From Anaerolinea sp. (GTDB lineage Bacteria > Chloroflexota > Anaerolineae > Anaerolineales > Villigracilaceae), in assembly GCA_020047815.1 (NCBI GenBank), contig JAIFNG010000175.1:1-64000 (forward strand): DNA of 64,000 bases, in the 5' to 3' direction. Shown here piece after piece: positions 35,265 through 59,825 of this stretch. The position numbers and the translations under genes are program-made. The notes under the pieces were generated by a model that worked only from the letters and a program-made list of their open reading frames with translations, was not told where the DNA came from and made no database searches. How positions within the stretch are numbered: the first letter of the stretch is position 1; each line of letters begins with the position of its first letter.

Positions 35265-35309
35265 TTGACATCCTTCCTCTTTTTTGCTACACTATAAGTT
35301 GTCAGACAA
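35265..35309 (+). promoter_or_regulatory. Promoter and operator of the purine island
   Basis: TTGACA and TACACT are spaced by exactly 17 bases, a near-consensus promoter. TTGTCAGACAA, a perfect 11-bp palindrome, begins five bases after the -10 and so covers the start of transcription. A repressor there would block initiation. GntR/HutC-type regulators bind similar GTC-GAC palindromes, and two such regulators are encoded in the island. Confidence 0.65.
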
Positions 35310-35345
35310 TTAAACCAACGGCAAATTGCTAAAGGCGAACAACTA

Positions 35346-36725
35346 ATGACAACTCTCCTTATAAAAAACGCATACATTGTCACAATGGACGACCACCAAC
35401 GGGAAATTGCCGAGGGCGGTCTTTTTATTCGGGATGGGGTTATCGAGCAGGTCGGGGTAACCCGCGATCTGCCATTGACTGCTGATGAAGTTCTGGACCT
35501 GACGGGTCATGTCGTCCTGCCGGGGCTGGTCAACACGCACCATCATTTTTACCAGACCCTCACACGCGCCGTACCTGCAGCGCAGGATGCAAATCTCTTC
35601 AACTGGTTGAAGACTTTATATCCCATTTGGGCGAAGTTACAGCCTGATGATATTTTCACTTCGACTCAAACTGCACTATCAGAACTGGCGCTTTCGGGAT
35701 GCACCACTGCATCGGACCATCTCTACCTCTTTCCGAATGGATCCAAATTGGATGATGAAATTGCCGCCGCCCTTGAAGTTGGGGTGCGGCTACAGGCTTC
35801 TCGCGGCTCGATGAGTCTCGGTGAATCCAAAGGCGGACTTCCCCCCGATTCAGTTGTGGATACCGAGGAAAATATTCTCAAGGATTCCCAGCGTCTGATC
35901 GAAAAATACCACGATGCCAAACCCGGCGCCATGACCCAGATCGTACTTGCACCTTGTTCGCCGTTCAGTGTCACATCTGATCTGATGAAACAGTCGGCAA
36001 AATTAGCTCGTGAATATGGTGTGCATTTACATACCCATCTGGCTGAAACCGAAGACGAAGAACAATTTTGCCAGCAGATGTTTGGACATCGACCGGTGGG
36101 CTATATGCAGGAAGTTGATTGGGTCGGCGGTGACGTCTGGTTCGCGCACGCAGTATGGGTGAACGACGAGGAAATTCAAGTTTTCGCCAAACACGATTGC
36201 GGCGTGGCACATTGCCCGACCTCCAATATGCGCCTTGCATCTGGTATTGCGCCGGTCAAGGAATACCGCGCCGCTGGTGTCAATGTCGGCCTGGGAGTGG
36301 ACGGCTCTGCTTCCAATGATGGCTCGAATTTGCTGGCGGAAGTCCGCAACGCGATGCTGGTCTCACGGGTGAAGGATGGGATGACTGGTTATTCCCTGTC
36401 CAATGATCCCAACCGCAAGTTAATGACCGCCCGTCAAGCCTTGCATCTTGGCACGCGCGGCGGCGCGGCGGTCCTGGGCCGCACTGATATCGGAAGCCTG
36501 GAAGCGGGAAAGTGTGCCGACTTTTTTGCTGTCAACTTGAATAAACTTGCTTATACGGGTATGCACGATCCTGTTTCGGCGATCGTATTTGGACAGTCGA
36601 TGAATGTCGATTACACCGTGGTGAATGGGAAGTATGTTGTCAGGCAAGGTCAACTGGCGACGGTGGACGAACACAAGTTGATTGAAAGGCATAACAAAGC
36701 TGCCAAACGATTGTTGACAGCCTAG
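35346..36725 (+). CDS. 8-oxoguanine deaminase-like amidohydrolase
   Basis: A 459-residue amidohydrolase of the ATZ/TRZ group. Metal ligands and catalytic residues are visible: NTHHHFYQTLTRAVP, HTHLAET, WFAHAVW and GLGVDGSASNDGSN. The segments SGCTTASDHLYLFPNG and RGSMSLGESKGGLPPDSVV match the family described as 8-oxoguanine deaminase, also annotated as hydroxydechloroatrazine ethylaminohydrolase. It would turn 8-oxoguanine into urate and ammonia. It is the first gene after the strong promoter with the palindromic operator, and its place among purine genes fits. Guanine or isocytosine-like substrates are alternatives. Confidence 0.88.
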   Translation: MTTLLIKNAYIVTMDDHQREIAEGGLFIRDGVIEQVGVTRDLPLTADEVLDLTGHVVLPGLVNTHHHFYQTLTRAVPAAQDANLFNWLKTLYPIWAKLQPDDIFTSTQTALSELALSGCTTASDHLYLFPNGSKLDDEIAAALEVGVRLQASRGSMSLGESKGGLPPDSVVDTEENILKDSQRLIEKYHDAKPGAMTQIVLAPCSPFSVTSDLMKQSAKLAREYGVHLHTHLAETEDEEQFCQQMFGHRPVGYMQEVDWVGGDVWFAHAVWVNDEEIQVFAKHDCGVAHCPTSNMRLASGIAPVKEYRAAGVNVGLGVDGSASNDGSNLLAEVRNAMLVSRVKDGMTGYSLSNDPNRKLMTARQALHLGTRGGAAVLGRTDIGSLEAGKCADFFAVNLNKLAYTGMHDPVSAIVFGQSMNVDYTVVNGKYVVRQGQLATVDEHKLIERHNKAAKRLLTA

Positions 36726-36735
36726 GAGGAATGTT

Positions 36736-37065
36736 ATGGACGTTGTAACTAATGTGTTGTTTTTGCTTTCGCACGGGATTCCAGGATTGGTCGTCGCAGG
36801 TGTGACGATGATCCTGATCCTGCTTGGATTAATTCGCAAAGAAGACGGCTTGGTGATCTTTGCCGCGTTTTTGTTCATTCCCTTCGCTTATACAATGGGT
36901 TCGTGGGAGGGTCTTCGTTTATTTGTGAGGTTAATGCCGTTGTTTTTATTGGCATCCGCTTTTGCCATTAGCAGGAATGAACCCTTGCTTGCCTGGGTTT
37001 TGCCCATTCCCCCTGCGGCGTACTTGATTTATATCCTCTTCAACATTATAGCCTCTGACCTATAG
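36736..37065 (+). CDS. Small three-helix membrane protein of unknown function
   Basis: A 109-residue protein with three to four hydrophobic helices and almost no soluble part. I recognise no family. TAGGAGG gives it an excellent ribosome binding site, and it lies 10 bases after the 8-oxoguanine deaminase gene and 44 before adenine deaminase, so it is certainly expressed with them. It could help in transport or anchoring, but nothing in the sequence says so. Confidence 0.75.
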   Translation: MDVVTNVLFLLSHGIPGLVVAGVTMILILLGLIRKEDGLVIFAAFLFIPFAYTMGSWEGLRLFVRLMPLFLLASAFAISRNEPLLAWVLPIPPAAYLIYILFNIIASDL

Positions 37066-37109
37066 ATTTTTTGGCTGCAAAACAGTCTCGCAGGAGTGAC
37101 AGAACCGAA

Positions 37110-38900
37110 ATGACAACATCCACCAAACTCACAGCCGCTCTTGTTAATGTGGCAATGGGGCGCGCCAAGGCTGATCTCGTGATCCGGGATGGCAGATGGG
37201 TCAGCGTGCAATCAGGCGAGATGGTTCCGCATACCGATATTGCCATAGTCAATGGCCACATTGCGTATGTTGGATCAGATGCCAGCCACACGATTGGAGA
37301 AAAAACAAAGGTCATTGAAGCCAAAGGGCGTTATCTTGTGCCAGGGCTGCTCGACGGCCACATGCACGTTGAATCGGGCATGGTGACAGTCACGGAATTT
37401 GTCCGCGCGGCGGCTGTGCGTGGTACCACGGGCATGTTCATTGACCCGCATGAGATCGCAAATGTCTTTGGCTTGAAAGGCGTCAAATTGATGGTGGATG
37501 AAGCCGCCAAACAACCCATTCATGTCTGGGTGCAGATGCCTTCGTGTGTGCCATCCTCCCCGGGATTTGAAACCCCTGGCGCTTCGATTGGTCCCAGGGA
37601 AGTTGCGGAAGCCATGACCTGGAAAGGGATCATCGGGCTTGGCGAGATGATGAATTTCCCCGGCGTTTTTATGAGCGATAAGAAAATGCTTGATGAAATG
37701 ACCGCGACCCATGCTGCTGGAAAGACCATTGGTGGGCATTATCCATCCCTTGACCTGGGGCTGCCATTCCATGGATATGTGGCCGGTGGGGCAGAGGATG
37801 ATCACGAAGGTACACGGGTTGAAGACGCCATCGAGCGTGTTCGGCAGGGAATGAAGGCCATGCTGCGTTACGGTTCAGCCTGGCATGATGTAGCTTCACA
37901 GGTCAAGGCAATCACTGAAAAGAAACTGGATTCACACAGGTTCATTCTTTGTACAGACGACTCACATGCCGCGACCCTTGCGCAGGAAGGTCATATGGAT
38001 CGGGTCCTGCGCCATGCAATAGGTGAGGGACTTAATCCAATGACAGCCCTTCAAATGATGACGATCAATACAGCGGAGCATTTTGGTCTGACAAAGGAAA
38101 TGGGCATGATCGCGCCCGGGCGGTGGGGAGATGTGCTGCTCGTGAATGATCTGATGAATTTTAAAGCAGATGTTGTGATCGCCAAAGGACAGGTGATCGC
38201 GGAAGCCGGTAAATTGCAGGTTGAATTGCCGTCAGTGAAATATCCCAAATGGGTCATAAGTTCCGTGCACTTGAAGAGAAATCTCAAGGCGGCGGATTTT
38301 GCCCTTCGGACGAGATCAGCAGACAGGTCTGAGGTTGATGCGCATGTCATCGGCGTGATCGAGAATCAAGCTCCCACACGTCATCTCCATATGAAAGTAA
38401 TAGCCGAGAATGGGGAAGTTAGATCAGATCTGAAACGCGACCTCGCGAAGATCGCGGTGGTGGAACGTCATCGTGCGACGGGCAAGGTCATGGTGGGTTT
38501 GGTGAGTGGATTTGAATTTACAAGGAAGTGTGCCATTGCCTCGACCGTGGTACATGACAGCCATAACATGATCGTGGTGGGGACGGACGATGAGGACATG
38601 GCGATCGCCGCGAATGAATTGGCCAAATGCGGCGGTGGTCAGGTGGTGGTGATCGATGGCGAAGTGGTCGGGCTGGTGGATCTACCGATAGCTGGCTTGA
38701 TGTCAAATGAGCACGCTGATATTGTGGCGCAGAAAGCCATCTCAGTGCTGGAAGGATTCAAGGCTTGTGGTTGTGAACTGAATAACCCGAACATGCAATT
38801 GAGTTTGCTCGGACTGGTGGTGATCCCTGAACTCCGTATCTCCGATATGGGTCTGGTGGATGTAACCAATTTTGATTTTATCTCTGTGTTGGATGATTGA
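37110..38900 (+). CDS. ade: Adenine deaminase
   Basis: About 596 residues from ATG 37110, with AGGAG 14 bases upstream. The TTG start at 37071 in the ORF list adds 13 unlikely residues. The amidohydrolase domain shows GLLDGHMHVESGMVT, IDPHEIANVFG and RFILCTDDSHAATLAQEGHMD. The C-terminal adenine deaminase domain shows HDSHNMIVVGTDDEDMAIAA. The enzyme converts adenine to hypoxanthine and ammonia using two metal ions. In this island it would supply hypoxanthine to the xanthine dehydrogenase at 57-60 kb. The GntR gene follows after six bases. Confidence 0.94.
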   Translation: MTTSTKLTAALVNVAMGRAKADLVIRDGRWVSVQSGEMVPHTDIAIVNGHIAYVGSDASHTIGEKTKVIEAKGRYLVPGLLDGHMHVESGMVTVTEFVRAAAVRGTTGMFIDPHEIANVFGLKGVKLMVDEAAKQPIHVWVQMPSCVPSSPGFETPGASIGPREVAEAMTWKGIIGLGEMMNFPGVFMSDKKMLDEMTATHAAGKTIGGHYPSLDLGLPFHGYVAGGAEDDHEGTRVEDAIERVRQGMKAMLRYGSAWHDVASQVKAITEKKLDSHRFILCTDDSHAATLAQEGHMDRVLRHAIGEGLNPMTALQMMTINTAEHFGLTKEMGMIAPGRWGDVLLVNDLMNFKADVVIAKGQVIAEAGKLQVELPSVKYPKWVISSVHLKRNLKAADFALRTRSADRSEVDAHVIGVIENQAPTRHLHMKVIAENGEVRSDLKRDLAKIAVVERHRATGKVMVGLVSGFEFTRKCAIASTVVHDSHNMIVVGTDDEDMAIAANELAKCGGGQVVVIDGEVVGLVDLPIAGLMSNEHADIVAQKAISVLEGFKACGCELNNPNMQLSLLGLVVIPELRISDMGLVDVTNFDFISVLDD

Positions 38901-38906
38901 GGTTTC

Positions 38907-39620
38907 ATGTCGAATTTTCCTTTTCAACGATTGCAGGCTGACCTGGCTGGGTTAATTGCCCGCACGCCTGCGGGCCAGCGCCTGCCCTCAGAGCCCGACC
39001 TTGCAAAACAACTGGGTGTTTCGCGCGCCACTTTGCGTGATGCCATGCGTACCTTTGAAACCCAGGGACTTGTTCGCCGCAGGCAGGGATCTGGTACATT
39101 TGTGGTGGGTAAGGTGCAGGCGCTGGATAGCGGCCTCGAAGTATTGGAAAGTCTTGAGACAATGGCGAAGCGTTTGGGTCTTGGGATTTCTGTAAGTAAT
39201 TTAAGTGTGGAGCAAATTATGGCGGATGAGACTACCGCTGAAAATTTGACCCTTGCTGTGGGGGCGCCTTTGCTGCGGGTCCGCCGTGTGATCTGCGCAG
39301 ATGAGCGTCCGGTTGCTTATCTTGTGGATATTCTGCCTGAAGAGGTGCTGCACCTGGATGATCTGCCCGCCGATTTTCACGGGTCTGTTCTTGATCATTT
39401 ATTGGGTCGTGGCGATTCTTTGAAAACCTCCCGAGCCAATATTAGCGCAATCGGTGCAACTGCCGAAGTTGCGAAAGCACTTCAAATTCAACGCGGCGAT
39501 GTATTGCTGCATTTCCATTCACAATTATTTGATGGGGGCGGGAGGATTGTGGATTATTCCATGAGCTATTTTATTCCGGGCTATTTCCACTTTCATGTCG
39601 TAAGACGAGTTGGTGGTTGA
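38907..39620 (+). CDS. GntR/HutC-type transcription regulator (UTRA domain)
   Basis: A 237-residue regulator. The winged helix-turn-helix at about 10-75 shows LPSEPDLAKQLGVSRATLRD and RRRQGSGTFV. A UTRA ligand-binding domain occupies about 90-235. UTRA proteins sense small molecules, often the substrate or an intermediate of the pathway they control. It sits in the purine operon between ade and the ygeY-like gene, six bases after ade, so it is likely a local repressor. It differs from the other UTRA regulator at 50343, so the two may sense different compounds. Confidence 0.92.
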   Translation: MSNFPFQRLQADLAGLIARTPAGQRLPSEPDLAKQLGVSRATLRDAMRTFETQGLVRRRQGSGTFVVGKVQALDSGLEVLESLETMAKRLGLGISVSNLSVEQIMADETTAENLTLAVGAPLLRVRRVICADERPVAYLVDILPEEVLHLDDLPADFHGSVLDHLLGRGDSLKTSRANISAIGATAEVAKALQIQRGDVLLHFHSQLFDGGGRIVDYSMSYFIPGYFHFHVVRRVGG

Positions 39621-39674: not shown

Positions 39675-40874
39675 ATGACAGACAAAATAAAGGAACTTCA
39701 GAAGCTGGTGGAGGCATCCCGTGAGGATATCATCAAATTCATGCGTGATATTGTAGCCATTCCTTCCATGGAGTCAAAGATCGGACCTGTGGGCGAACGC
39801 ATTCAGGCGGAAATGAGGAAACTTGGCTATGACGAAGTGCGTTTCGACAAAATGGGCAACACCATCGGACGCATTGGTAACGGAAAAAAAGTGATCGTTT
39901 TTGATTCACACATCGATACTGTTGGCGTTGGAGACCCGGGCGAATGGGAATGGGATCCGTTTATAGGTAAAGTCGAAGACGGCGTTCTCTTTGCTCGCGG
40001 CGCGTGCGATGAAAAGAACAGTACACCGGGCATGGTGTACGGTCTTGCCTTTGCGCGCGACCTCGGTTTGCTCGATGGCTGGACAGCCTACTACTTTGGC
40101 AATATGGAAGAGTGGTGTGACGGCATTGCACCCAATACCTTCGTGGAAGTTGACCCGAAGATCAAGCCTGATTTTGTTGTCATCGGCGAGCCGACCAAAA
40201 TGAATGTGTATCGTGGTCACAAGGGTCGCCTTGAAATGAAGGTTACTTCCAAGGGTAAATCGGCACATGCTGCTTCCAATCATGTCGGTGATAACGCCAT
40301 TTACAAACTGCTGCCTGTGATTGCAGGTATCCGTGACCTCGAGCCCAAACTAGGCGATCATGAATTTTTGGGACACGGCAAGATCACCGTTTCTGATATG
40401 CATGTCCAGACCCCGTCCATTAATGCGGTGCCGGACGAAGCCATCATCTACATTGACCGCCGCATGACCTTTGGCGAGACCAAGGAGCAAGTCAAGAAAG
40501 AGGTCGAGGATCTGATCCCCGCTGAATTTAAGAGTACCGTCAAGGTTGAGGAACTCTTCTATGACGAACCCTCCTACACTGGTTTTGTCTTCCCTGTTGA
40601 TAAATACTTCCCCGCCTGGGCCCTTGAGGCGGAACATCCGCTGGTGAAGGCCGGACAGGAAGCCCGCGTACAGATCGGTTTAAAGGATGTTCCAAGCGGC
40701 AAGTGGAATTTTTCGACCAACGGCATCTACTGGGCTGGCAAGGCTGGCATCCCCTCCATCGGCTTCGGTCCTGGTGATGAAGAAACAGCTCACACCGTAC
40801 GCGATTCCGTTTCACTCGAAGATATGGTCAAATCGACGGAGTTTTATGCTGTAGTGGCGAGCCTGATCAAGTAA
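39675..40874 (+). CDS. ygeY: YgeY-type M20 family hydrolase
   Basis: A 399-residue M20 metallohydrolase. The motifs are FDSHIDTVGVGD near residue 78, RGACDEKNSTPG near 109 and NMEEW near 143, which supply metal ligands and the general base. The dimerisation domain carries KGKSAHAASN. The sequence matches the group named YgeY, first called selenium metabolism-linked and later tied to anaerobic purine breakdown, where it is thought to hydrolyse a ureido-acid intermediate. AAGGAG precedes the ATG. The carbamoyltransferase and carbamate kinase genes follow, which supports that role. Confidence 0.9.
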   Translation: MTDKIKELQKLVEASREDIIKFMRDIVAIPSMESKIGPVGERIQAEMRKLGYDEVRFDKMGNTIGRIGNGKKVIVFDSHIDTVGVGDPGEWEWDPFIGKVEDGVLFARGACDEKNSTPGMVYGLAFARDLGLLDGWTAYYFGNMEEWCDGIAPNTFVEVDPKIKPDFVVIGEPTKMNVYRGHKGRLEMKVTSKGKSAHAASNHVGDNAIYKLLPVIAGIRDLEPKLGDHEFLGHGKITVSDMHVQTPSINAVPDEAIIYIDRRMTFGETKEQVKKEVEDLIPAEFKSTVKVEELFYDEPSYTGFVFPVDKYFPAWALEAEHPLVKAGQEARVQIGLKDVPSGKWNFSTNGIYWAGKAGIPSIGFGPGDEETAHTVRDSVSLEDMVKSTEFYAVVASLIK

Positions 40875-41967: not shown

Positions 41968-42921
41968 ATGACAAACAAACTCGCTGTAATTGCCATCGGC
42001 GGCAACTCACTGATCAAAGATGATAAAAATGTGACCGTTGAAAGTCAGTACCAGGCCGCCAAAGAGACATGCATGCACATCGCAGACATGATCGAGCAGG
42101 GCTGGGACGTGGCAATTGGTCACGGAAATGGCCCCCAGGTCGGCTATATTTTGCGCCGTTCTGAAATTGCCGCCAAGACCGCTGGCATGCACGAAGTTCC
42201 GCTGGATGTATGCGGCGCGGATACCCAGGGCGCGATCGGCTACGCTCTTCAACAGAACCTGCAAAATATTCTGTATCAACGCGGCATCAAGAAGAAAGTG
42301 GTCACTGTAATCACCCAGGTGCTGGTGGATAGGGATGATCCCGCTTTTTCCAAACCCACCAAGCCAATCGGCAGTTTCATGGATCAGGCCGAATCAGAAC
42401 GCCGTCAGCGTGAGCAAGGCTGGACAGTGGTTGAAGATGCCGGGCGCGGCTTCCGCCGTGTGGTCGCTTCTCCATTGCCAAAGGAGATCGTTGAACTGGA
42501 AACCGTTCAGACTCTGCTCGAGAAAGGCATCATCACCATCACGGTGGGCGGCGGCGGCATTCCTGTGATCGACCCGGGTGACGGCAACTATGAAGGTATC
42601 GCCGCTGTGATCGATAAGGATTTTGCTTCATCCCTGCTGGCCCAGGAGATCAAGGCTGAATTGTTTGTCATCTCCACTGCGGTTGAAAAAGTGGCGATTT
42701 ATTTTGGCAAACCCGAGCAAAAATGGCTCGACAAAATGACGGTCACGGAAGCCAAAGCCTATCTGGCTGAAGGCATTCACTTTGCAAAAGGTTCCATGGC
42801 GCCAAAGATCCAGGCAGCAATTGTGTATCTTGAGAAAGGCGGCAAGGAAGCGCTCATTACCAATCCTGAAAATATCGGGCGCGCTCTCAAAGGCGAAACA
42901 GGTACAAGGATCGTTCCATAA
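41968..42921 (+). CDS. arcC: Carbamate kinase
   Basis: A 317-residue amino acid kinase family enzyme that makes ATP from carbamoyl phosphate and ADP in the cytosol. It shows AIGGNSLIKDD, GWDVAIGHGNGPQVG, TVGGGGIPVIDPGDGNYEGI and AVIDKDFASSLLAQEI, all typical of ArcC. The ATG lies nine bases after the carbamoyltransferase stop, so the two are made together. With the YgeY-like hydrolase they form a route from ureido compounds to ATP. A terminator-like hairpin follows. Confidence 0.96.
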   Translation: MTNKLAVIAIGGNSLIKDDKNVTVESQYQAAKETCMHIADMIEQGWDVAIGHGNGPQVGYILRRSEIAAKTAGMHEVPLDVCGADTQGAIGYALQQNLQNILYQRGIKKKVVTVITQVLVDRDDPAFSKPTKPIGSFMDQAESERRQREQGWTVVEDAGRGFRRVVASPLPKEIVELETVQTLLEKGIITITVGGGGIPVIDPGDGNYEGIAAVIDKDFASSLLAQEIKAELFVISTAVEKVAIYFGKPEQKWLDKMTVTEAKAYLAEGIHFAKGSMAPKIQAAIVYLEKGGKEALITNPENIGRALKGETGTRIVP

Positions 42922-50318: not shown

Positions 50319-50342
50319 CTATCCTTTAATTTTTCACAACCC

Positions 50343-51074
50343 ATGCGAATACTTCAATCGAAGTCTATTGCTAATCAGGTAGATGAAATCCTCCTTGAGA
50401 GAATCCGGGATGGCATATATTTGCCGGGTAGTCGTATACCGTCTGAAAGTGAATTGTCTGATGAGTTGGGGGTAAGCCGAGCCACAGTGCGTACTGCACT
50501 TGCCAAACTGGCAGCCAATGGATTTATTCTTCGTAAACAAGGGAATGGTACCTACGTCAATGAACATGTAAATGAAACCAGTGCTCACTTTGGGAATTTG
50601 TGGGATCTGGCGGAGTTGATATCAGGGAATGGCTACAATCCTTCCATCCGTTTTCTTTCCATCGATCGCAGACCCGCCACTGAAAAAGAGGCGCTCGTTC
50701 TGGCGTTGGAGGAAGGGGAGGAATTGATCTGTCTGCAGCGGTTATTTTATGCTGATCAACAGCCTGTCATTTTGGCAGACAATGTGATCCCGTATTCCCT
50801 GCTTCGTGCGCCGATCGAGAACATCGACGGCAAACTTCATATCCGTGAAATTTTTGAACAATATTTTCATCAAAAGATCTCATTTGTTTTGACCGACATA
50901 CGCTCTACTTTGATGGCTGCTGATGCTCAGGAGTTTTTGAGTGGCAAAGCTGGCAGGGCAATTTTGCAATTGCAAACAATATTTTACGGAAAAAACAACA
51001 TGCCCCTTGCATTGGGTGTGAATGTTTTTGACGATTCGTTCCTGCATTTGAGTTTGGCGCAGGCGTGGAGTTGA
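50343..51074 (+). CDS. GntR/HutC-type transcription regulator (UTRA domain)
   Basis: A 243-residue regulator. The helix-turn-helix shows IPSESELSDELGVSRATVRTALAKL and LRKQGNGTYV, and the UTRA domain covers about 85-240. It sits exactly between the two transporter operons. Its own upstream region has two GTCAGAC sites like the one at the head of the island, so it is the better candidate for the island-wide repressor. The effector is probably a purine or a breakdown product, which is inference from position. No ribosome binding site is obvious before its ATG. Confidence 0.92.
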   Translation: MRILQSKSIANQVDEILLERIRDGIYLPGSRIPSESELSDELGVSRATVRTALAKLAANGFILRKQGNGTYVNEHVNETSAHFGNLWDLAELISGNGYNPSIRFLSIDRRPATEKEALVLALEEGEELICLQRLFYADQQPVILADNVIPYSLLRAPIENIDGKLHIREIFEQYFHQKISFVLTDIRSTLMAADAQEFLSGKAGRAILQLQTIFYGKNNMPLALGVNVFDDSFLHLSLAQAWS

Positions 51075-51128: not shown

Positions 51129-52277
51129 ATGCAACAAAAACTTGGTTCCCTTTTTGACGCCTTATTGCCGGTTATCGCCACGCTTGCCGCGCTTGCCGTA
51201 GGAGCAGTGATGCTCCTCTTTCTCAAAGTCAACCCTGTTGAGGCGTATGCCGCACTTTGGGATGGTGCCTTTGGAAGTTCCAATGCCTTTGCAGAAACAC
51301 TGGTCAAGGCAACCCCTTTGTTGTTGGTGGGGATCGGCATTTGCATCTCATTTCGCGGCGATGTGATTAACATTGGCGGTGAAGGACAAATGATCATTGG
51401 CGCAGTCCTCGCGACGTGGGTTGGCTTGAATTTCACCGGCCTTCCTGGCTGGTTGACGATCACTCTTTCCATGATGGCGGGTTTTTTGGGCGGGGCTATT
51501 TGGGGAGGAATTCCGGGGGTGCTCAAAGCCTATTTCAGTGTGAACGAAATCCTCAGCACAGTAATGATGAATGCCATAGCAGTCCAGCTGATGAACTTCC
51601 TTCTTCGCGGGCCGATGATCGATCCTGCACAGGCAGAGATGGCTTCACAAATTCCTCAAACTGCACGCCTGGAGGAAATTTTCCGCCTGCCGCGATTGGC
51701 GCCGACCCGTTTGCATCTTGGCGCATTGATCGCGGTGATCTTTGCCGTCCTTGTTTACATCCTTTTATGGCGTACTACACTTGGATATCGCATCCGCGCG
51801 GTGGGACAGAACCCGCATGCTTCACGTTATGCGGGCATTAAGGTTCAGCGTTATATGGTTCTTGCCTTGTTGCTGAGCGGCGCTTTTGCCGGACTGGCCG
51901 GGGCGACTCAGGTTTTTGGTGTGAATTACCGCATGATCACTGATGGATCATCATCCGGCTTTACAGGAAGCGCCGGGTTCAATGGGATTGTTGCTGCCTT
52001 ATTTGGCGGTTTGCATCCGATCCTGACCATCCCTGCATCGATCTTATTTGGTGCGCTTTTGGTGGGCGCTAACAAAATGCAAAGGGTGGTTCAGGTTCCT
52101 TCTGCATTGATCACTGCCTTAAATGGATTGGTGGTTGTATTTGTTGTCAGTAGTGAAATTATTCGCAAGAGACGACAACGAAGGCGGGAGGCGGTTGCCA
52201 AACGGGATGATGAAACTCCACCCCCTGCAGTTGAAGCAGGAAATAAAAAAATCCAGCAAGCGGAGGTGGGTTCATGA
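51129..52277 (+). CDS. Nucleoside ABC transporter permease, transporter 2 (first)
   Basis: A 382-residue BPD_transp_2 permease of the YufP/NupB type. VKATPLLLVGIGICISFRGDVINIGGEGQMIIGA and SVNEILSTVMMNAIAVQ match the equivalent parts of the transporter 1 protein, so the two are paralogs. The C-terminal 40 residues are charged and cytosolic. It starts 54 bases after the GntR gene and overlaps the next permease by four bases. Confidence 0.93.
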   Translation: MQQKLGSLFDALLPVIATLAALAVGAVMLLFLKVNPVEAYAALWDGAFGSSNAFAETLVKATPLLLVGIGICISFRGDVINIGGEGQMIIGAVLATWVGLNFTGLPGWLTITLSMMAGFLGGAIWGGIPGVLKAYFSVNEILSTVMMNAIAVQLMNFLLRGPMIDPAQAEMASQIPQTARLEEIFRLPRLAPTRLHLGALIAVIFAVLVYILLWRTTLGYRIRAVGQNPHASRYAGIKVQRYMVLALLLSGAFAGLAGATQVFGVNYRMITDGSSSGFTGSAGFNGIVAALFGGLHPILTIPASILFGALLVGANKMQRVVQVPSALITALNGLVVVFVVSSEIIRKRRQRRREAVAKRDDETPPPAVEAGNKKIQQAEVGS

Positions 52278-53206
52278 TATCTGATCTCTTTACTGTCACC
52301 GTGCTGATCGGCATTTTGGCATCTGGAATTCGCCTATCCACTCCATATTTATTTGCCGCAATTGGTGAAACCTTTGGACAAAAAAGCGGCGTGCTTAATC
52401 TGGGCGTTGAAGGACAAATGCTGTTAGGTGCTTTTGCCGCGTTTTATGTCGCGCTTACAACCGGGAATTTGTGGCTTGGTCTGTTTACTGCCATGATCGT
52501 TGGTGCGTTGATGGGGCTTGCCATGGCATATGTGACCGTCAATTTACATGCCGAACAGGGTATCAGCGGTATCGGTTTCTATCTCTTCGGCCTGGGCATG
52601 AGCGATTTGCTGTTCCAAAAGTTAATGGGTACAGTGGAAACAGTTAAAGGTTTTCCAGAAATTTATATCCCGGGTTTGAGCGATATTCCTGGAATCGGTA
52701 AAATTTTCTTTAGCCAGAATATTCTGGTCTATATCGCATATTTGCTTGTGCCTATTGCCTGGTTCGTATTGAATAAGACCACCCTGGGGTTGAAGATCCG
52801 TTCGGTGGGTGAAAACCCCGATGCGGCGGATTCACTCGGTGTAAGCGTGTCCCGTATTCGATATTTCACCATCATCCTTGGCGGAACGCTTTCCGGGATT
52901 GCCGGTGCATCCCTGTCCATCGCTTTACTGAATGTTTTCCAGCAGAATATGACCAGCGGACTTGGCTTTATTGCGGTGGCGTTGGTTTACTTTGGCGCAT
53001 GGCGCCCCATTGGCGTTTTAGGCGGCGCTTTATTGTTTAGTTTGATAAATTCCCTGCAATTGTGGGTGCAGGTATTGAGCATTCCCATTCCTTCTGATAT
53101 TGCGGTGATGATGCCGTATGTAGTGACGATTTTGGTGTTGGTAGCCACAGTATCGAAAGTTCGCGCCCCGTCAGCGTTGACGAAGCCCTTTGAGCGGGGC
53201 GATTAA
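52274..53206 (+). CDS. Nucleoside ABC transporter permease, transporter 2 (second)
   Basis: A 310-residue YufQ/NupC-type permease. AAIGETFGQKSGVLNLGVEGQMLLGAF and LKIRSVGENPDAADSLGVSVSRIR are the family marks. Start and stop overlap by ATGA with the gene before, behind GGAGGT. In this second operon the permeases come first and the binding protein and ATPase last, the reverse of transporter 1. Confidence 0.93.
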   Translation: MISDLFTVTVLIGILASGIRLSTPYLFAAIGETFGQKSGVLNLGVEGQMLLGAFAAFYVALTTGNLWLGLFTAMIVGALMGLAMAYVTVNLHAEQGISGIGFYLFGLGMSDLLFQKLMGTVETVKGFPEIYIPGLSDIPGIGKIFFSQNILVYIAYLLVPIAWFVLNKTTLGLKIRSVGENPDAADSLGVSVSRIRYFTIILGGTLSGIAGASLSIALLNVFQQNMTSGLGFIAVALVYFGAWRPIGVLGGALLFSLINSLQLWVQVLSIPIPSDIAVMMPYVVTILVLVATVSKVRAPSALTKPFERGD

Positions 53207-53314: not shown

Positions 53315-54382
53315 ATGAAAAAAATTGTTTGGTTTTTACTCACCATGGCGCTTGTCTTAAGTGCCTGCGGCGCTCCCGCCGTTGCCACTGAAGCCCCCGC
53401 TGCTGAAGCGCCTGCTGCCACTGAGGCTCCCGCTGTTGCCACTGAAGCACCCGCTGCTACTGAAGCACCAGTCATGGCTGAACCGTTCCGCGTGGCCGTT
53501 GTAATGCCCAGTGCCACCACTGACCTGGCGTTTGGTCAATCCATGTACGATGCCCTCGTCCGCGTTCAGGAAGAGATGGGTGCAGATAAGTTCGAGTTCG
53601 TTTATTCTGAAGGCATGTTCGTTGTGGACGATGCCGCTGCCGCCATCCGTGATTATGCCACCCAGGGTTTCGATCTGATTATCGCCCATGGTTCACAGTA
53701 CGGTTCCTCTTTACAGGAAATTGCCCCCGACTTCCCCGAAACCAGTTTTGCCTGGGGTACAACAGTTGATACATTTGGTCTCCCCAATGTATTCGCCTAT
53801 GAAGCATTGTCCCAGGAAGGCGGCTATGTTAACGGCGTATTGGCAGCTTCCCTCAGCACCAGCAAAGTGATCGGTATTGTTGGACCGATTGAAACCGGTG
53901 ATGCCAAGTTGTATGTTGATGGTTTCAAAGCTGGTGTTGTTGCGACTGATCCCGCGATCCAGGTGAACGTTAATTATATTGGTTCCTTCTCGGATGTTGC
54001 TCTTGCCTCCGAAGCTGCCACCACCCACATTGCCGCTGGCGCCGATGTTTTGACCGGCTCTGCTCAGATGGTTGTCGGCGCGATCGGAAAGGCCGAGGAA
54101 GCCAATGCCTTGTGGTTCGGTACTCAATCCAATCAGGCGTCGCTTGCCCCATCGATTGTGGTAGCCAGCCAGGTGTATCACTGGGAAGTCATGCTCAATG
54201 AGATGATCGGTCTCATTCAGGAAGGCACCCTCGGTGGACAGTCCTTTGCTGCCAATCTTGCCAATGGCGGACAGGTGATCGAATTTAACGCAGATTACGC
54301 GCTGTCTGATGAAGCCAAAGCTTTGGCTGACGAGACCATCAAAGGTATCGTTGACGGCACGATTACAATTGCTCTGCCGTAG
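53315..54382 (+). CDS. BMP family nucleoside-binding lipoprotein, transporter 2
   Basis: A 355-residue lipoprotein with lipobox VLSACG and an Ala/Pro/Thr/Glu repeat linker to about residue 50. The BMP domain starts FRVAVVMPSATTDLAFGQSM and has GSQYGSSLQEIAPDFPET. It is clearly a different subgroup from the transporter 1 binding protein, so the two systems probably take up different compounds. AAGGAG precedes the ATG. The ATPase gene follows after a strong hairpin. Confidence 0.92.
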   Translation: MKKIVWFLLTMALVLSACGAPAVATEAPAAEAPAATEAPAVATEAPAATEAPVMAEPFRVAVVMPSATTDLAFGQSMYDALVRVQEEMGADKFEFVYSEGMFVVDDAAAAIRDYATQGFDLIIAHGSQYGSSLQEIAPDFPETSFAWGTTVDTFGLPNVFAYEALSQEGGYVNGVLAASLSTSKVIGIVGPIETGDAKLYVDGFKAGVVATDPAIQVNVNYIGSFSDVALASEAATTHIAAGADVLTGSAQMVVGAIGKAEEANALWFGTQSNQASLAPSIVVASQVYHWEVMLNEMIGLIQEGTLGGQSFAANLANGGQVIEFNADYALSDEAKALADETIKGIVDGTITIALP

Positions 54383-54396
54383 TCTCTTATAGAAAA

Positions 54397-54430: not shown

Positions 54431-54454
54431 AATCCAATTTTTAGGATGGCACCC

Positions 54455-56014
54455 ATGAGCGAAACCGATAAACTCCCCTCTGGACGGGCTCGTATCAATA
54501 GCCTGGAAATGCGCGGCATTACCAAGAGATTCCCTGGTGTGCTTGCCAGTGATCATGTTGACTTCGATGTGAAATCTGGTGAAGTCCATGCCCTTTTGGG
54601 CGAAAATGGCGCGGGTAAAAGCACGTTGATGAAAATCCTGTATGGTTTATATCATCCTGACGAAGGCGAGGTATTGATCAACGGCAAGCCAGTCAGAATT
54701 TCTTCACCCACAGATTCGATCAATCTCGGCATTGGCATGATCCACCAGCATTTTATGCTGGTGCAGACCATGACCGTGGCTGAAAATGTTGCACTGGGAC
54801 TGCCATCCTCCCGTGGTGCGCTGACAGACCTTGACCGCGTTTCGAAACGGATCGTCGAACTGGCAGATATCTATGGTCTGAGAATTGACCCATCGGCCTA
54901 TATCTGGCAGTTATCTGTGGGGCAGCAGCAACGGGTGGAAATTATTAAAGCCCTGTATCGCGGGGCAGCCTTGCTTATCCTTGACGAGCCAACCGCTGTT
55001 CTCACCCCGCAGGAAGTGGATGAATTATTCGTCATTATGAATCAGATGGTCAGGGATGGGCACGGGCTTGTTTTTATTTCTCACAAACTGCATGAAGTGG
55101 TTGAAATCAGCCATCGCATTTCTGTTCTGCGTGATGGACGTATGATCGGTACGCGCCTCACGTCTGAAACCACCAAACAAGACCTTGCCAACTGGATGGT
55201 TGGACGTGAAGTCGGATTTACCCCGGATCGCGGACAAGTGGAGTGTGGTGGTCCCCGCTTGCAGCTCAAAGATGTATCCTGTGGCAGTGACCGTGGGACA
55301 CCAGGCTTGCGCGGCATCAGCATTGATGTTTGCTCGGGTGAAATTTTGGGTATTGCGGGAGTCTCTGGTAATGGTCAACGCGAGTTGGCGGAAACCATTA
55401 CAGGTTTGCGGAAAACAACAGGCGGACAGGTCTTTTTGGAAGGAAATGACATCACCGGGTTTTCCCCATCTGATGTCACAGACCGGATGCTTTCCTACAT
55501 CCCTGAAGAACGTATGCGCGATGGGATGATCAAGGATTTCACAGTTGCTGAAAATATGATCCTGCGTGAGCATGAAAAAATGCCTTACTCACGTTATGGA
55601 TTTCTCAACCTGCGCGAAATTTCCCAACATGCCGACCAATTGATCAAAAAATTTCATGTTAAGACTCCTTCGCGTGAAACCCATGCCAAAAATCTTTCCG
55701 GCGGTAATATTCAAAAGATCGTCCTGGCACGTGAAATTTTTCGCACCCCGCGTGTCATCATTGCTGCCCAACCCACCCGCGGACTGGATATTGGCGCGAC
55801 TGAGTACGTCCGTGAGCAATTGCTTGAACAACGAAAACAAGGCGTGGCGATCATGCTTATATCCGAAGACCTTGATGAGATCCTTGCACTTTCCGACCGC
55901 ATTGCTGTCATCTACGAAGGCCAGGTCATGGATATTGTTCCACGCGCTGAAGCCACTCCGGCAAAACTTGGCTTATTAATGGCAGGTGTTCATCCTGAAG
56001 AAACACCCGCATAA
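54455..56014 (+). CDS. Nucleoside ABC transporter ATPase (two nucleotide-binding domains), transporter 2
   Basis: About 519 residues from ATG 54455, which has AGG nine bases upstream. The ATG at 54446 leaves no spacing. It has two ABC domains: Walker A GENGAGKSTLMK, MIHQHFML, LSVGQQQRVEIIK and LLILDEPTAVLTP in the first, GVSGNGQREL and LSGGNIQKIVLAREI with QPTRGLDIGA in the second. It is a clear paralog of the transporter 1 ATPase. It is the last gene of the second transporter set and is followed by the xanthine dehydrogenase genes. Confidence 0.94.
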   Translation: MSETDKLPSGRARINSLEMRGITKRFPGVLASDHVDFDVKSGEVHALLGENGAGKSTLMKILYGLYHPDEGEVLINGKPVRISSPTDSINLGIGMIHQHFMLVQTMTVAENVALGLPSSRGALTDLDRVSKRIVELADIYGLRIDPSAYIWQLSVGQQQRVEIIKALYRGAALLILDEPTAVLTPQEVDELFVIMNQMVRDGHGLVFISHKLHEVVEISHRISVLRDGRMIGTRLTSETTKQDLANWMVGREVGFTPDRGQVECGGPRLQLKDVSCGSDRGTPGLRGISIDVCSGEILGIAGVSGNGQRELAETITGLRKTTGGQVFLEGNDITGFSPSDVTDRMLSYIPEERMRDGMIKDFTVAENMILREHEKMPYSRYGFLNLREISQHADQLIKKFHVKTPSRETHAKNLSGGNIQKIVLAREIFRTPRVIIAAQPTRGLDIGATEYVREQLLEQRKQGVAIMLISEDLDEILALSDRIAVIYEGQVMDIVPRAEATPAKLGLLMAGVHPEETPA

Positions 56015-56146: not shown

Positions 56147-57019
56147 ATGAACCTTTGGCAGGAATACAAAAGACCCGCTTCGATTGCAGAAGCAATTCAA
56201 GCGCTAACATCTGCACCTGGCCCTGCAATGCCCATTGCAGGCGGTACAGACTTGATGCTTGACCTAAAACAAGGTCGTCATTCACCCGTCCATACTCTAA
56301 TTGATCTGACATTTATCAGGGAGATGACCGTCCTTGAGTTGAGGGGGGATGAACTTTTTATCGGCGCCTCCGTTGCAGTCAACCAGGTTGCGACAGATCC
56401 TTTAGTGGGTGACCACGCCCAGGCATTGGTCGAAGCCTGTAATTTGATCGCAGGACCACAAGTCCGTAACACCGCCACCATCGGGGGAAATGTGGCGCAC
56501 GCACTCCCCGCTGCAGATGGGACCATCGCCCTTACCGCCCTCGATGCGCAAGCTGAGGTTGCGAGTCCTGCAGGTGTCCGCCGAATGCCATTTACTTCGC
56601 TTTTCCTCGGGCCGGGAAAGTCTTCCATTAATAAAAGTGAAGAAATCATCGTTGGCTTTTACCTTCCCAAATTGAAAAAGGGACAAGCCTCCTGCTTCAA
56701 ACGCATCATGCGCCCGCAGGGAGTTGCGCTTCCCATTCTGAATTGCTCTGTCTGGCTTGAACGTGAAAAAGATACAGTAAAGGATATTCATATCGCTGTC
56801 GGTCCCGGCGGCTCGACTCCCTTCCGGGCTACAGAAGCAGAAGCTGCCTTGTGTGGACGATCTTTCAGTGAAGAGACTTTCAGCCATGCACTTGAGGCTC
56901 TGCTGGGTCAAGCCAAATTCCGCACCAGTGCCCGCCGTGCCAGCGCAGAATACCGCAAACATATTGTTGGCGGTTTATTTAGAGATGTATTTGAAGCAGC
57001 GTGGAAACGCGCAGAATAG
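56147..57019 (+). CDS. Xanthine dehydrogenase FAD-binding subunit
   Basis: About 290 residues from ATG 56147, with AGAGG upstream. The frame from 56060 adds an unlikely leader. It is a CoxM-type flavoprotein: PAMPIAGGTDLMLDLK binds FAD diphosphate, followed by GASVAVNQVATDPLV and QVRNTATIGGNVAHALPAAD. It would pass electrons from the iron-sulfur centres of the partner subunit to NAD or another acceptor. The gene for the iron-sulfur/molybdenum subunit follows after ten bases, so the two form one enzyme. Confidence 0.93.
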   Translation: MNLWQEYKRPASIAEAIQALTSAPGPAMPIAGGTDLMLDLKQGRHSPVHTLIDLTFIREMTVLELRGDELFIGASVAVNQVATDPLVGDHAQALVEACNLIAGPQVRNTATIGGNVAHALPAADGTIALTALDAQAEVASPAGVRRMPFTSLFLGPGKSSINKSEEIIVGFYLPKLKKGQASCFKRIMRPQGVALPILNCSVWLEREKDTVKDIHIAVGPGGSTPFRATEAEAALCGRSFSEETFSHALEALLGQAKFRTSARRASAEYRKHIVGGLFRDVFEAAWKRAE

Positions 57020-57029
57020 GATTAATGGT

Positions 57030-59825
57030 ATGTCAAACATAAATCTATCAGTCAATGGCAAACAATATTCACTTGCTCCCGTTGCGGGCGAGACTTTATC
57101 CACCCTCCTTCGACAAAGGCTTAACCTCACAGGTACAAAGATCGGCTGCGAGGAAGCTGAGTGCGGGGCATGCACTGTCCTTGTGAACGGTGAACCGACA
57201 ATGTCCTGTGTTTATCCCGCAGAGCGCGCGGATGGCAAGACCATTGTCACCATCGAGGGACTTGCCCAGCGTGTCCATGAAGAGATGAAGCTGCATCCAC
57301 TGCAGGAAGCTTTTGTGGAACATGGCGCAGTTCAATGCGGATTCTGCATCCCCGGTCAAATTATGACTGCTTATGCCCTGCTCAAACGCAACCCGGATCC
57401 CACCAGTGACGATGTTCGTTTTGCGTTAAAGGATACACTCTGTCGTTGCGCGGGTTATCCTTCCATCCAAAATGCCATCCTTGCCGCGGCGCAAGCTTTG
57501 CGTACCGGTGAGCCTGTTCAAAAGCCAGATCACATACCCGATTCTATTCACACGCACAAAACGGTTGGACATAAACACTTGCGCCCTGAAGCAGTTGAAA
57601 AGGTAACGGGCAAGGCTATCTATACTGATGACCTGACATTTGACGGCATGTTATTTGCAAAAGCCAAACGCGCCATGATCCCGCATGGGTTTCTAACGAA
57701 ACTGGATATTTCCAAGGCAAAAGCATTGAAGGGTGTCCTGGCGGTCTTAACCGCGGATGACATCCCCGGCGAACACAATCACGGGTTGGTCATCTATGAC
57801 TGGCCTGTCATGGTGGGTATTGGGGAGCGTGTTCGCTATGTGGGCGATGCGCTTGCCATTGTCGCCGCGGAAACCCAGGAGATCGCCGACCAGGCATCCG
57901 GGTTGATTGAAGCGGAGTTTGACCTGCAACCTATAATTACCAACCCTGTTCAGGCACGCCAGGATGGTGTGCCGCAGATCCATGAGAAAGGCAACCTGCT
58001 CAAGCACATTAAAGTCCGCAAAGGTGACATGGATGCGGGTTTTGCCAGTGCTGATGTGGTCCTCGAACACACCTTCCACACCCCAACCACCGACCATGCT
58101 TTCATCGAACCTGAGTGCAGCATTGGGGTGCCGCTAGAAAATGGGCGTATGGAAATTTATGTCGGCTCACAAATTCCATATCAGGATAAAACCCAGGTGG
58201 CGCGTGCATTAGGGTGGGATGAAGAACGGGTGCGCATTGTTGGGCAGTTGATGGGCGGCGGTTTTGGCGGCAAGGAAGACATCATGGGACAGATCCATGT
58301 TGCCCTGCTTGCCAACGTGACCCAGCGTCCTGTAAAATTGTTGTTTGACCGTCAGGAAAGTTTGCTTGTGCACCCCAAGCGCCATGCCACTCAAATCCGG
58401 GTTAAAGTTGGGGCAAAGAAAGATGGGCGCATTGTTGCCATGGATACCGAGTTATATGGTGACACAGGTGCGTATGCGTCGCTCGGCGAAAAAGTAATGA
58501 CCCGTGCCACCACGCATTCGGCAGGTCCCTACGATATTGAAAACGTCCGTGCTGATTGTTATGCCATGTACACCAACAACCCACCTTCGGGTGCATTCCG
58601 CGGATTTGGTGTAACGCAGTCCGCTTTTGCTGTTGAATCGATGATGGATATGCTTGCTGAAAAATTGAAGATGGATCGCGTGGAACTGCGCCGGATGAAT
58701 GCGCTGCATGTTGGAAGCATCACCAATACAGGACAGGTCCTGCGTGATTCGGTGGGTTTGACGGAATGTATCGATAAAGTGGAAGCGGAAATGCGGAGGG
58801 TCGATCCAAATCCATTCAGTCCGAAAGTTGATCCTGAGAACCCGAACCTGGTGCGTGCCTGGGGATATGCTTCTGCCTATAAAAACACGGGACTTGGCGG
58901 CGGTGCGCCTGATAAATCAGGTGCAGATGTCGAGCTGTACGAAGATGGTACTTTCCAGGTCCGCAGTTCAGCCGCTGAACTTGGGCAGGGACTCGTCACC
59001 GTTATGCGCCTGGTGGTTTCGGAAGAAATGTCAATTGCACCTGAGAAAGTCAGTGTCCTTGTCATGGATACCGACCTGACTCCGAATGGTGGGCCAACCA
59101 CGGCCTCCCGTCAGACCTTTGTTACAGGTAATGCGTCACGCTATGCTGCAAAGACCCTGCGTGAGCAAATCTCTGCCACGATGGCGGAGAAGTATGATGT
59201 GCGCCCCGAGCAGATACGCTTTGAAGATGGTATTGTCCATGTTAACGGACATTCAATGACCTACGCGGAAATCTATAAGGAAATGATGGGGATGGGACAG
59301 AAGCCGCTTGTCCGCTATGAATATGAAGCGCCCAAGACTAAACCACTTGGGGAAGGCGGTGACATGCATTTCGCATTCTCCTTTGCCACCCAAGCCGCCG
59401 AAGTGGAAGTGAACAAATTAACGGGTGAGGTGCGCGTGCTTAAGGTTATCTCTGCCAACGACGTGGGCATGGCGGTCAACCCTCTCGGCTTGCAGGGACA
59501 GGTCGAAGGCGGCGTGATGATGGGTCTAGGCAACTGCCTTACCGAAGAGTTTATTGTCGAGAACGGCAACGTGGTCACAGACCATCTCGCCCGTTACCGT
59601 GTGCCCGGCATCATGCTCACCCCTGAGATCACCTCCATCATCGTTGAGCATCCTGTGGAAGCAGGTCCTTATGGTGCGAAGGGCGTTGGCGAAGTATCCA
59701 GCATCCCCACCACACCCGCCATTACCAACGCCATTTATAACGCGGTGGGTGTAAGAATTTTCAAACTCCCTGTGGATCAGGAAATGATAGCAAAGGAGTT
59801 GTGGGAGCGGGAAAGTAATAAGTAG
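57030..59825 (+). CDS. Xanthine dehydrogenase, fused iron-sulfur and molybdenum subunit
   Basis: About 931 residues from ATG 57030. The frame from 56853 overlaps the FAD gene. Residues 1-155 carry two [2Fe-2S] clusters: GCEEAECGACTVLVNG, then VQCGFCIPGQIM and DTLCRCAGYPSIQ. The rest is the molybdopterin part, with QLMGGGFGGKEDI, GAFRGFGVTQSAFAVE and KGVGEVSSIPTTPAI, which contains the catalytic Glu. Xanthine dehydrogenases oxidise hypoxanthine and xanthine to urate. Related hydroxylases act on other N-heterocycles, so the substrate rests on context. No in-frame stop or selenocysteine is seen. A strong terminator follows. Confidence 0.93.
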   Translation: MSNINLSVNGKQYSLAPVAGETLSTLLRQRLNLTGTKIGCEEAECGACTVLVNGEPTMSCVYPAERADGKTIVTIEGLAQRVHEEMKLHPLQEAFVEHGAVQCGFCIPGQIMTAYALLKRNPDPTSDDVRFALKDTLCRCAGYPSIQNAILAAAQALRTGEPVQKPDHIPDSIHTHKTVGHKHLRPEAVEKVTGKAIYTDDLTFDGMLFAKAKRAMIPHGFLTKLDISKAKALKGVLAVLTADDIPGEHNHGLVIYDWPVMVGIGERVRYVGDALAIVAAETQEIADQASGLIEAEFDLQPIITNPVQARQDGVPQIHEKGNLLKHIKVRKGDMDAGFASADVVLEHTFHTPTTDHAFIEPECSIGVPLENGRMEIYVGSQIPYQDKTQVARALGWDEERVRIVGQLMGGGFGGKEDIMGQIHVALLANVTQRPVKLLFDRQESLLVHPKRHATQIRVKVGAKKDGRIVAMDTELYGDTGAYASLGEKVMTRATTHSAGPYDIENVRADCYAMYTNNPPSGAFRGFGVTQSAFAVESMMDMLAEKLKMDRVELRRMNALHVGSITNTGQVLRDSVGLTECIDKVEAEMRRVDPNPFSPKVDPENPNLVRAWGYASAYKNTGLGGGAPDKSGADVELYEDGTFQVRSSAAELGQGLVTVMRLVVSEEMSIAPEKVSVLVMDTDLTPNGGPTTASRQTFVTGNASRYAAKTLREQISATMAEKYDVRPEQIRFEDGIVHVNGHSMTYAEIYKEMMGMGQKPLVRYEYEAPKTKPLGEGGDMHFAFSFATQAAEVEVNKLTGEVRVLKVISANDVGMAVNPLGLQGQVEGGVMMGLGNCLTEEFIVENGNVVTDHLARYRVPGIMLTPEITSIIVEHPVEAGPYGAKGVGEVSSIPTTPAITNAIYNAVGVRIFKLPVDQEMIAKELWERESNK

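Follow-up and report, generated by a model that had tools for sequence, protein, structure and literature searches.

A genomic island of Anaerolineae with the predicted purine entry and carbamoyl-phosphate tail of an F420-type reductive urate pathway

Results

A purine island predicted to open and close the reductive urate pathway

A 64-kb stretch of an Anaerolinea sp. genome (assembly GCA_020047815.1, contig JAIFNG010000175.1, positions 1 to 64,000; hereafter, the window) carries an island of genes between 35,346 and 59,825, all of them on the + strand behind a single promoter. The island joins purine deaminases, a xanthine dehydrogenase (XDH1) and two importers with a YgeY-family hydrolase, a carbamoyltransferase that we call CT1 and a carbamate kinase (CK). 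We consider it likely that this island encodes the purine entry and the energy-yielding tail of the anaerobic reductive urate pathway, the middle part of which lies elsewhere in the same genome. The observations that carry this view are the gene content, the phylogeny of CT1, gene linkage, co-occurrence across the class and an operator shared between the island and an unlinked gene, PALPc17.

According to the scenario that we propose, importers of the PnrA/BMP type would take up nucleosides or bases, and adenine deaminase, an 8-oxoguanine-deaminase-family enzyme (8OGD) and XDH1 would convert adenine and guanine to hypoxanthine, xanthine and urate. A second enzyme of the xanthine dehydrogenase family (XDH2), together with a small FAD subunit, would turn urate into 2,8-dioxopurine, which would then be dearomatised by an F420-dependent reductase of the luciferase-like (LLM) family supplied by NpdG. 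SsnA would open the ring, and a hydantoinase would lead on to 2,3-diureidopropionate. From here the island would take over: CT1 would release carbamoyl phosphate from one ureido group by phosphorolysis, the other would be hydrolysed by YgeY, and CK would make ATP from the carbamoyl phosphate. 2,3-Diaminopropionate would be split by PALPc17 or by a second pyridoxal-phosphate (PLP) enzyme, ThrC14, and not by YgeX. All substrates and reaction directions, as well as the choice of the PLP lyase, are what we infer from homology and gene context.

The source is a metagenome-assembled genome (MAG) of the class Anaerolineae (4.06 Mb in 192 contigs, 88.8% complete, 1.8% contaminated), and the public genomes closest to the window belong to Anaerolineales and other Chloroflexota. 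Below, C20, C80, C181 (the window) and C182 denote contigs of this MAG, while labels beginning with G stand for other genomes sampled. Genes were named from Pfam/NCBIfam-type profile scores, given here with their curated cut-offs; a score above the cut-off counts as a match.

CT1 is a compact relative of YgeW

Four carbamoyltransferases are encoded in the MAG, namely argF, a putrescine carbamoyltransferase (PTC) and pyrB, all three named from sequence and context, and CT1. The PTC gene adjoins an agmatine-deiminase-like gene (C189; L110, 1-2211), a pair that might be a second user of the island CK. CT1 shows 38% identity to E. coli YgeW and about 31% to the ArgF of its own genome, and it stays below every curated cut-off, including PRK00779 (248.8 < 306), TIGR00658 (230 < 281) and the YgeW models PRK07200 (185.7 < 453) and TIGR03316 (177.5 < 500). 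In a maximum-likelihood tree, built without N-acetylornithine and N-succinylornithine carbamoyltransferase sequences and containing long branches, CT1 and YgeW form a single clade with a support of 100/99, and a topology placing CT1 with ornithine carbamoyltransferases (OTC) and PTC was rejected by the approximately unbiased (AU) test (p-AU 0.0039). A grouping of CT1 with the ornithine enzymes had been named in advance, in a preliminary description of this DNA, as one of two outcomes that together would overturn the urate interpretation; CT1 falls with YgeW instead.

The motifs agree with such a placement. Among 89 CT1 sequences, the general carbamoyltransferase signatures SxRT, HPxQ and HxLP appear as STRT (89/89), HPFQ (83/89) and HPLP (85/89), whereas the ornithine-specific DxxxSMG loop is missing in all 89. 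A proline-rich loop of the WAYAASYLKPISVPQS type occurs in 85 sequences, as does Y[AP]KSWGP, with the lysine that opens the 240's loop; the 120's loop is five residues longer than in OTC. A proline-rich loop combined with an extended 120's loop is the signature of knotted carbamoyltransferases (PMC4581275), and CT1 appears to fit it. An AlphaFold2 (AF2) model with a mean confidence (pLDDT) of 88 has the carbamoyltransferase fold, with residues 172-174 and 249-251, in the two knot-diagnostic loops, falling below 50. This model was a second attempt, made with an alignment of the loci only; the first one, from 30 close sequences, reached a pLDDT of 59 and was set aside. A Foldseek search with the accepted model ranked OTC and N-acetylornithine carbamoyltransferase (AOTC) structures alike and did not separate knotted from unknotted relatives.

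At the same time, CT1 is not simply YgeW. It has 329 residues against 396 in YgeW, being about 65 residues shorter, and the insertions and extra helices of YgeW are missing in the alignment. It also has HPLP where YgeW has HCLP, the proline departing from the H[AVC]LP pattern given for YTCase (PMC4016543). Since CT1 lies far under the YgeW cut-off, lacks the extra helices and carries HPLP for HCLP, its sequence argues for a sister subfamily of YgeW and not for YgeW in the strict sense; the low score and the absent helices led us to discard the plain YgeW assignment. CT1 likely works like YgeW all the same.

The probable middle section lies elsewhere and is predicted to use F420

The preliminary description had found no ygeX, ygfK or hyuA in the 64-kb window, which we confirmed, and had supposed that this lineage uses a different middle section or encodes it elsewhere. 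Both suppositions hold. In a profile search of the MAG, SsnA was found on C80, above both of its cut-offs (531.7 > 444 and 497 > 455.5). It is followed by NpdG (NADPH:F420 reductase, 196 > 149.8), CofE, CofD, CofC and the F420-dependent LLM reductase, and farther along the same contig by the small FAD subunit and XDH2. A D-hydantoinase (517 > 393) and the PLP enzyme PALPc17 are on C20. Thus, the whole-genome search that had been suggested for ygeX, ygfK and hyuA returned a hydantoinase, while neither ygeX nor ygfK was found. In this genome the LLM reductase stands in the place of YgfK.

YgfK was not found in the sampled congeners either, one of which is a single-contig genome. Across 120 genomes drawn evenly from the class, YgfK scored above its cut-off in 20, in several of them beside SsnA (e.g., L182, 2380-5658). 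YgeX gave no match in the MAG and occurs in 2 of the 120 genomes, although SsnA is present in 93.

The two members of the xanthine dehydrogenase family can be told apart. XDH1, a molybdenum hydroxylase encoded by two genes, carries two motifs known from ordinary xanthine dehydrogenases, GGKED and FRGFG, which we take to be equivalent to active-site residues of the bovine enzyme. The best model for XDH2 is the E. coli XdhD family (TIGR03313), and it shares 39% identity with XdhD. It has Glu at the position of XdhD Glu606, where the alignment is gapped in both XDH1 and E. coli XdhA; this residue has been proposed to orient urate (PMC12507026). Of the two, XDH2 has the Glu606 equivalent and XDH1 has GGKED and FRGFG; urate reduction is therefore the probable role of XDH2, and xanthine oxidation that of XDH1.

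Two further features of these regions were noted. A large gene, resembling by eye M16-type proteases, lies between the FAD subunit and XDH2 both in the MAG (L114, 13920-16952) and in G111 (L201, 6686-9595). C80 also contains genes that we named by eye as three MttB-like methyltransferases, a corrinoid protein and a methyltetrahydrofolate-type methyltransferase (L116, 2662-12130).

Gene order, linkage and co-occurrence in relatives

We collected 80 loci with CT1 (78-99% identical) from other genomes, labelled nearly all as Chloroflexota or Anaerolineae, and counted gene presence in them by tblastn. The order 8OGD-Ade-GntR-YgeY-CT1-CK-(membrane protein)-importer was found again in most of these loci, and such recurrence rules out a chance neighbourhood. 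Several relatives have short S23-type four-helix-bundle proteins inserted between YgeY and CT1 or between CT1 and CK (L002, 9582-9950; L003, 7382-7771). Antisense frames over CT1, CK and YgeY (clusters c20, c21, c27 and c28) were discarded as shadow open reading frames.

In some genomes of other families, parts that are separated in the MAG are physically joined. The most complete example is G071, where YgeY, an ilvA-like gene, CT1, CK, ThrC14, PALPc17, SsnA, NpdG, CofE, a nitroreductase, CofD, CofC, the F420 reductase and the FAD subunit lie on one strand; partial strings of this cluster were found in G011, G030, G031, G039, G094 and G107. Six genomes have CT1 and SsnA no more than 20 kb apart, 17 have CT1 and PALPc17 no more than 15 kb apart, and in 11 the same 15-kb limit holds for PALPc17 and SsnA.

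CT1 was detected in 62 of the 120 class genomes. The F420 reductase accompanies it in 47/62 genomes, compared with 8/58 genomes without CT1 (p = 2.9e-12), and the respective counts for SsnA are 56/62 and 37/58 (p 4.7e-4); SsnA and PALPc17 also co-occur (p 2e-8). When one random genome per family was kept, the sole correction for shared ancestry, the median p values were 2.7e-6 for CT1 and the F420 reductase, 0.009 for CT1 and SsnA and 3e-6 for SsnA and PALPc17. Among the 93 genomes with SsnA, 50 have the F420 reductase, 18 have YgfK and none has both (per-family median p 6e-4). One would expect such mutual exclusion if the F420 reductase and YgfK were two alternatives for the same step.

An operator shared by the island and PALPc17

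An operator-like GTCwGAC sequence is present within 150 bp upstream of 8OGD in 45 of 48 loci, as against 1.6% of random windows. Its full form, TTGTCWGACAA, has 6 sites in the whole MAG (reversed control, 0). One belongs to the island promoter, one lies about 20 bp upstream of PALPc17, one falls within the end of cofD ahead of cofC, one precedes a serine hydroxymethyltransferase (SHMT)-like gene and two are at other places. Nine congeneric genomes have 29 sites (reversed control, 5), 8 of them before 8OGD and 6 at PALPc17. In another set, of four congeners including the source genome itself, the operator stands at -29 to -33 of PALPc17 in all four. The two island regulators with UTRA domains, GntR1 and GntR2, would be the obvious candidates for the protein that binds it. 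An earlier guess at the operator, TTGTNTANACAA, showed no enrichment, the conserved motif being TTGTCWGACAA.

Candidate replacements for YgeX

YgeX, PALPc17 and ThrC14 belong to a common family of PLP enzymes (PF00291), and PALPc17 or ThrC14, of PLP fold type II, probably replaces YgeX as the 2,3-diaminopropionate lyase. For PALPc17 (C20, 487 aa), every NCBIfam match stays far below its cut-off, the best being cysK (96 < 351). ThrC14 (C182) is threonine-synthase-like (179 > 167). The lyase might instead be ThrC14 or an enzyme that we did not recognise, with PALPc17 serving serine or cysteine metabolism; this rival concerns a single step, and we give it somewhat less than an even chance. In its favour, the best models of PALPc17 are cysteine synthases, however far under the cut-off, and in some congeners its operator is shared with serA/serC, an aminotransferase and an SHMT-like gene. 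Moreover, ThrC14 too lies in the clusters even though the genome has a separate, stronger thrC (286 > 167). Against it stand the direct adjacency of PALPc17 and SsnA in several families and their co-occurrence in the per-family test.

Weighing the alternatives

Several points speak against the urate interpretation as a whole. The MAG is incomplete and fragmented. No operator was found before SsnA in 30 cases. In some congeners the operator also stands between serA- and serC-like genes and ahead of an aminotransferase and a pyrimidine-nucleoside-phosphorylase-like gene (all named by eye), as well as ahead of SHMT-like genes; the regulon thus extends beyond purines, and PALPc17 could be part of serine or cysteine metabolism. 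The per-family association of CT1 with SsnA is modest. XDH2 remains under the XdhD cut-off (694 < 1102). The hydantoinase was assigned by family alone, is unlinked to the rest and may serve pyrimidines; HyuA was not found in the CT1-SsnA clusters examined. Finally, 6 of the 62 genomes with CT1 have no SsnA.

Some of these points favour a different reading, in which the island serves general purine or nucleoside salvage and nitrogen scavenging, and CT1 and CK act on another ureido compound, either pyrimidine-derived or allantoate from an oxidative pathway. The BMP-type importers and the deaminases fit salvage well, the genomes lacking SsnA are easily accommodated, and the hydantoinase could be a dihydropyrimidinase. 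There is also a precedent in Rubrobacter, where oxidative purine breakdown includes an aspartate-carbamoyltransferase (ATCase)-like enzyme with carbamate kinase (PMC4016543). Yet several families have CT1 directly inside SsnA-F420 clusters, its occurrence follows that of the F420 reductase (p 3e-12), YgeY exceeds the cut-off of its family and CT1 groups with YgeW; we judge salvage to be unlikely. Far less probable still is that CT1 and CK are a pair for ornithine or arginine (citrulline) fermentation lying beside purine genes by chance. The best NCBIfam model of CT1 is indeed an OTC, and its top PDB matches in sequence and fold are OTCs; but all the OTC scores are below their cut-offs, the ornithine loop is absent, the AU test rejects the OTC plus PTC grouping, argF and the PTC beside agmatine deiminase are encoded elsewhere in the genome, and the island has no arginine deiminase. 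We therefore rejected the assignment of CT1 as an OTC and retain the reductive urate pathway, whose ureido-acid and carbamoyl-phosphate tail had already been suggested in the preliminary description and gains support from homology, linkage and co-occurrence.

A second carbamoyltransferase and its YgeY

In at least 31 loci (e.g., L001, 7949-8902), another carbamoyltransferase, the ATCase-like CT2, is encoded between YgeY and CT1; the window represents the form without it. CT2 passes the cut-off of TIGR00670 (252.8 > 237) despite lacking RxQxER (0/40), and has HSLP (40/40) where the aspartate enzymes have HPLP. YgeY of the CT2 loci is a distinct subtype, 54-72% identical to that of the window, whereas YgeY from loci without CT2 is mostly 76-91% identical; 14 CT2 loci have no YgeY nearby. 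The presence of CT2 needs 2 changes on the YgeY tree (shuffled mean 17.4) and 12 on the CT1 tree. Such a distribution indicates that YgeY and CT2 form a cassette, which has been exchanged repeatedly under nearly identical CT1 genes.

On a plain reading, CT2 would take over the ureido group of YgeY and remove it by phosphorolysis in place of hydrolysis, so that the ATP yield would double. It is tempting to assemble a complete variant from all this: F420H2 instead of NAD(P)H or ferredoxin for the dearomatisation, a compact relative of YgeW for one ureido group, PALPc17 or ThrC14 for YgeX and, in many relatives, CT2, with two ATP per urate instead of one, because CT1 and CT2 would each give one carbamoyl phosphate. 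We put this combination forward tentatively and think it rather doubtful in its entirety.

Organisation of the island and its surroundings

The features of the island are listed in Table 1. The preliminary description had begun the island at 35,265, exactly the start of the -35 element of its promoter, and each gene that it named is present on the + strand. Its account of the string needs amending in two respects: the 650-aa membrane protein interrupts the string, and the genes for the two XDH1 subunits do not overlap, since their probable starts are ATG 56,147 (FAD subunit) and ATG 57,030 (large subunit). The 8OGD-family amidohydrolase is a candidate guanine/8-oxoguanine deaminase, judging by its family. 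About 36 loci have the 650-aa protein downstream of CK, with an identity of about 42%. The argument for the two operator-like copies ahead of GntR2 is their position, as the window-wide count at that mismatch level is not above chance.

Table 1. Features of the purine island, in window coordinates
Feature	Position	Strand	Evidence and remarks
Promoter with operator	35265-35309	+	-35 TTGACA 35265-35270, 17-bp spacer, -10 TACACT 35288-35293; consensus-like
Operator TTGTCAGACAA, 11-bp palindrome	35299-35309	+	At expected transcription start
8-oxoguanine-deaminase-family amidohydrolase (8OGD)	35346-36725	+	NF006055 676.7 > 532
109-aa hydrophobic protein	36736-37065	+	No Pfam/NCBIfam match; in about 8-10 of 80 loci
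Adenine deaminase (Ade)	37110-38900	+	TIGR01178 515.2 > 472.5; frame open from TTG 37071
GntR/UTRA regulator 1 (GntR1)	38907-39620	+	PF07702, PF00392
YgeY-family M20 hydrolase	39675-40874	+	TIGR03526 477.5 > 321.5; subtype seen without CT2
CT1, compact YgeW-like carbamoyltransferase, 329 aa	40969-41958	+	Tree, motifs, carbamoyltransferase fold in model
Carbamate kinase (CK)	41968-42921	+	TIGR00746 380.4 > 358.25
650-aa membrane protein	43007-44959	+	No Pfam/NCBIfam match; glycosyltransferase-like by appearance
PnrA/BMP-type substrate-binding lipoprotein 1	45076-46359	+	PF02608
ABC ATPase 1	46464-48053	+	Profile matches
ABC permease 1a	48046-49176	+	PF02653
ABC permease 1b	49179-50147	+	PF02653
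Two operator-like copies, TGTCAGACAACT at 50241 and CGTCAGACGACT at 50309	50241-50320	+	Ahead of GntR2
GntR/UTRA regulator 2 (GntR2)	50343-51074	+	Profile matches
ABC permease 2a	51129-52277	+	Profile match
ABC permease 2b	52274-53206	+	Profile match
PnrA/BMP-type substrate-binding lipoprotein 2	53315-54382	+	PF02608
ABC ATPase 2	54446-56014	+	Profile match
XDH1 FAD subunit	56147-57019	+	PF00941/PF03450 above cut-off; NF043083 186 < 310
XDH1 large subunit, fused [2Fe-2S] domain	57030-59825	+	TIGR03311 785 < 830; GGKED, FRGFG motifs

Convergent with the island is a gene for trans-4-hydroxy-L-proline dehydratase (59943-62297, - strand; NF043068 1273.8 > 1100), next to what looks like its activating enzyme (62348-63436, - strand) and, beyond that, a FadR-type GntR gene from 63293. 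On the other side of the island, a serine dehydratase (alpha/beta) is encoded at 30413-31618 (- strand); in the congener G121, the operator lies between the island and a serine-dehydratase-like gene transcribed away from it. The selD gene of the MAG, on C23, contains one in-frame TGA, a sign that SelD may carry selenocysteine.

Discussion

The reductive urate pathway is on record from E. coli and Clostridia, and a putative luciferase-family F420 reductase has already been noted in ssnA clusters of Chloroflexota (PMC12507026, Fig. 3c). The C80 locus is that variant, and the F420 variant itself is thus already known. The main text of that paper is without the island described here, its separate operon, the optional CT2 and the PLP enzymes standing in for YgeX. 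It also states that Chloroflexota lack YgfK (PMC12507026), which has to be qualified because of the 20 class genomes in which we found it above the cut-off. Compared with E. coli, the Anaerolineae genome has YgeY, a YgeW-like carbamoyltransferase, CK, SsnA, an XdhD-like reductase and a xanthine dehydrogenase, and the predicted end products are likewise carbamoyl phosphate, ATP and a C3 acid. In contrast, YgfK and YgeX were not found in the MAG, CT1 is shorter than YgeW, the genes lie in at least three unlinked places, and importers and deaminases head the operon of the tail.

Other purine systems resemble parts of this arrangement. In the C. difficile UacX/UacY variant (PMC12507026), the middle and the ureido-cleaving enzymes have also been replaced, while Anaerolineae would use F420 and a carbamoyltransferase (UacX and UacY were not searched for). 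The clostridial xanthinase pathway, compared by its description, is likewise an anaerobic breakdown of purines with xanthine dehydrogenase first, but proceeds by hydrolytic steps to glycine. CT2 of the relatives has HSLP and V-x-Q-P and no RxQxER, in the manner of group 3 of the pseudo-ATCases (PMC4016543), and in Nocardioides JS614 a pseudo-ATCase lies beside a ygeW homologue (PMC4016543). Unlike those pseudo-ATCases and the ureidoglycine transcarbamylase (UGTCase) of the same work, CT2 is part of a purine cluster, in which YgeY and CT1 flank it. As far as we searched the literature (subscription papers on gut urate breakdown and supplements aside), the distribution of the pathway over an import and tail operon, an SsnA-F420 locus and a separate PLP gene, with a shared operator, is new; within the same scope, so are the compact sister subfamily of YgeW, the rarity of YgeX together with two PLP enzymes that may replace it, the YgeY-CT2 cassette and the occurrence of YgfK in 20 of 120 genomes, in some of them beside SsnA.

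Sediments, groundwater and digesters are rich in Anaerolineae, and in these habitats the purines of dead cells are a source of nitrogen and carbon. Our results name and locate a full candidate gene set, list its departures from the gut pathway and suggest which enzymes to test as the substitute for YgeX. With the compact CT1 one could ask which parts of YgeW are important for ureido acids, and loci with and without CT2 offer a natural comparison between one and two energy-conserving carbamoyltransferases. Overall, the recently discovered urate pathway of gut bacteria appears, on our interpretation, rebuilt in a major environmental lineage.

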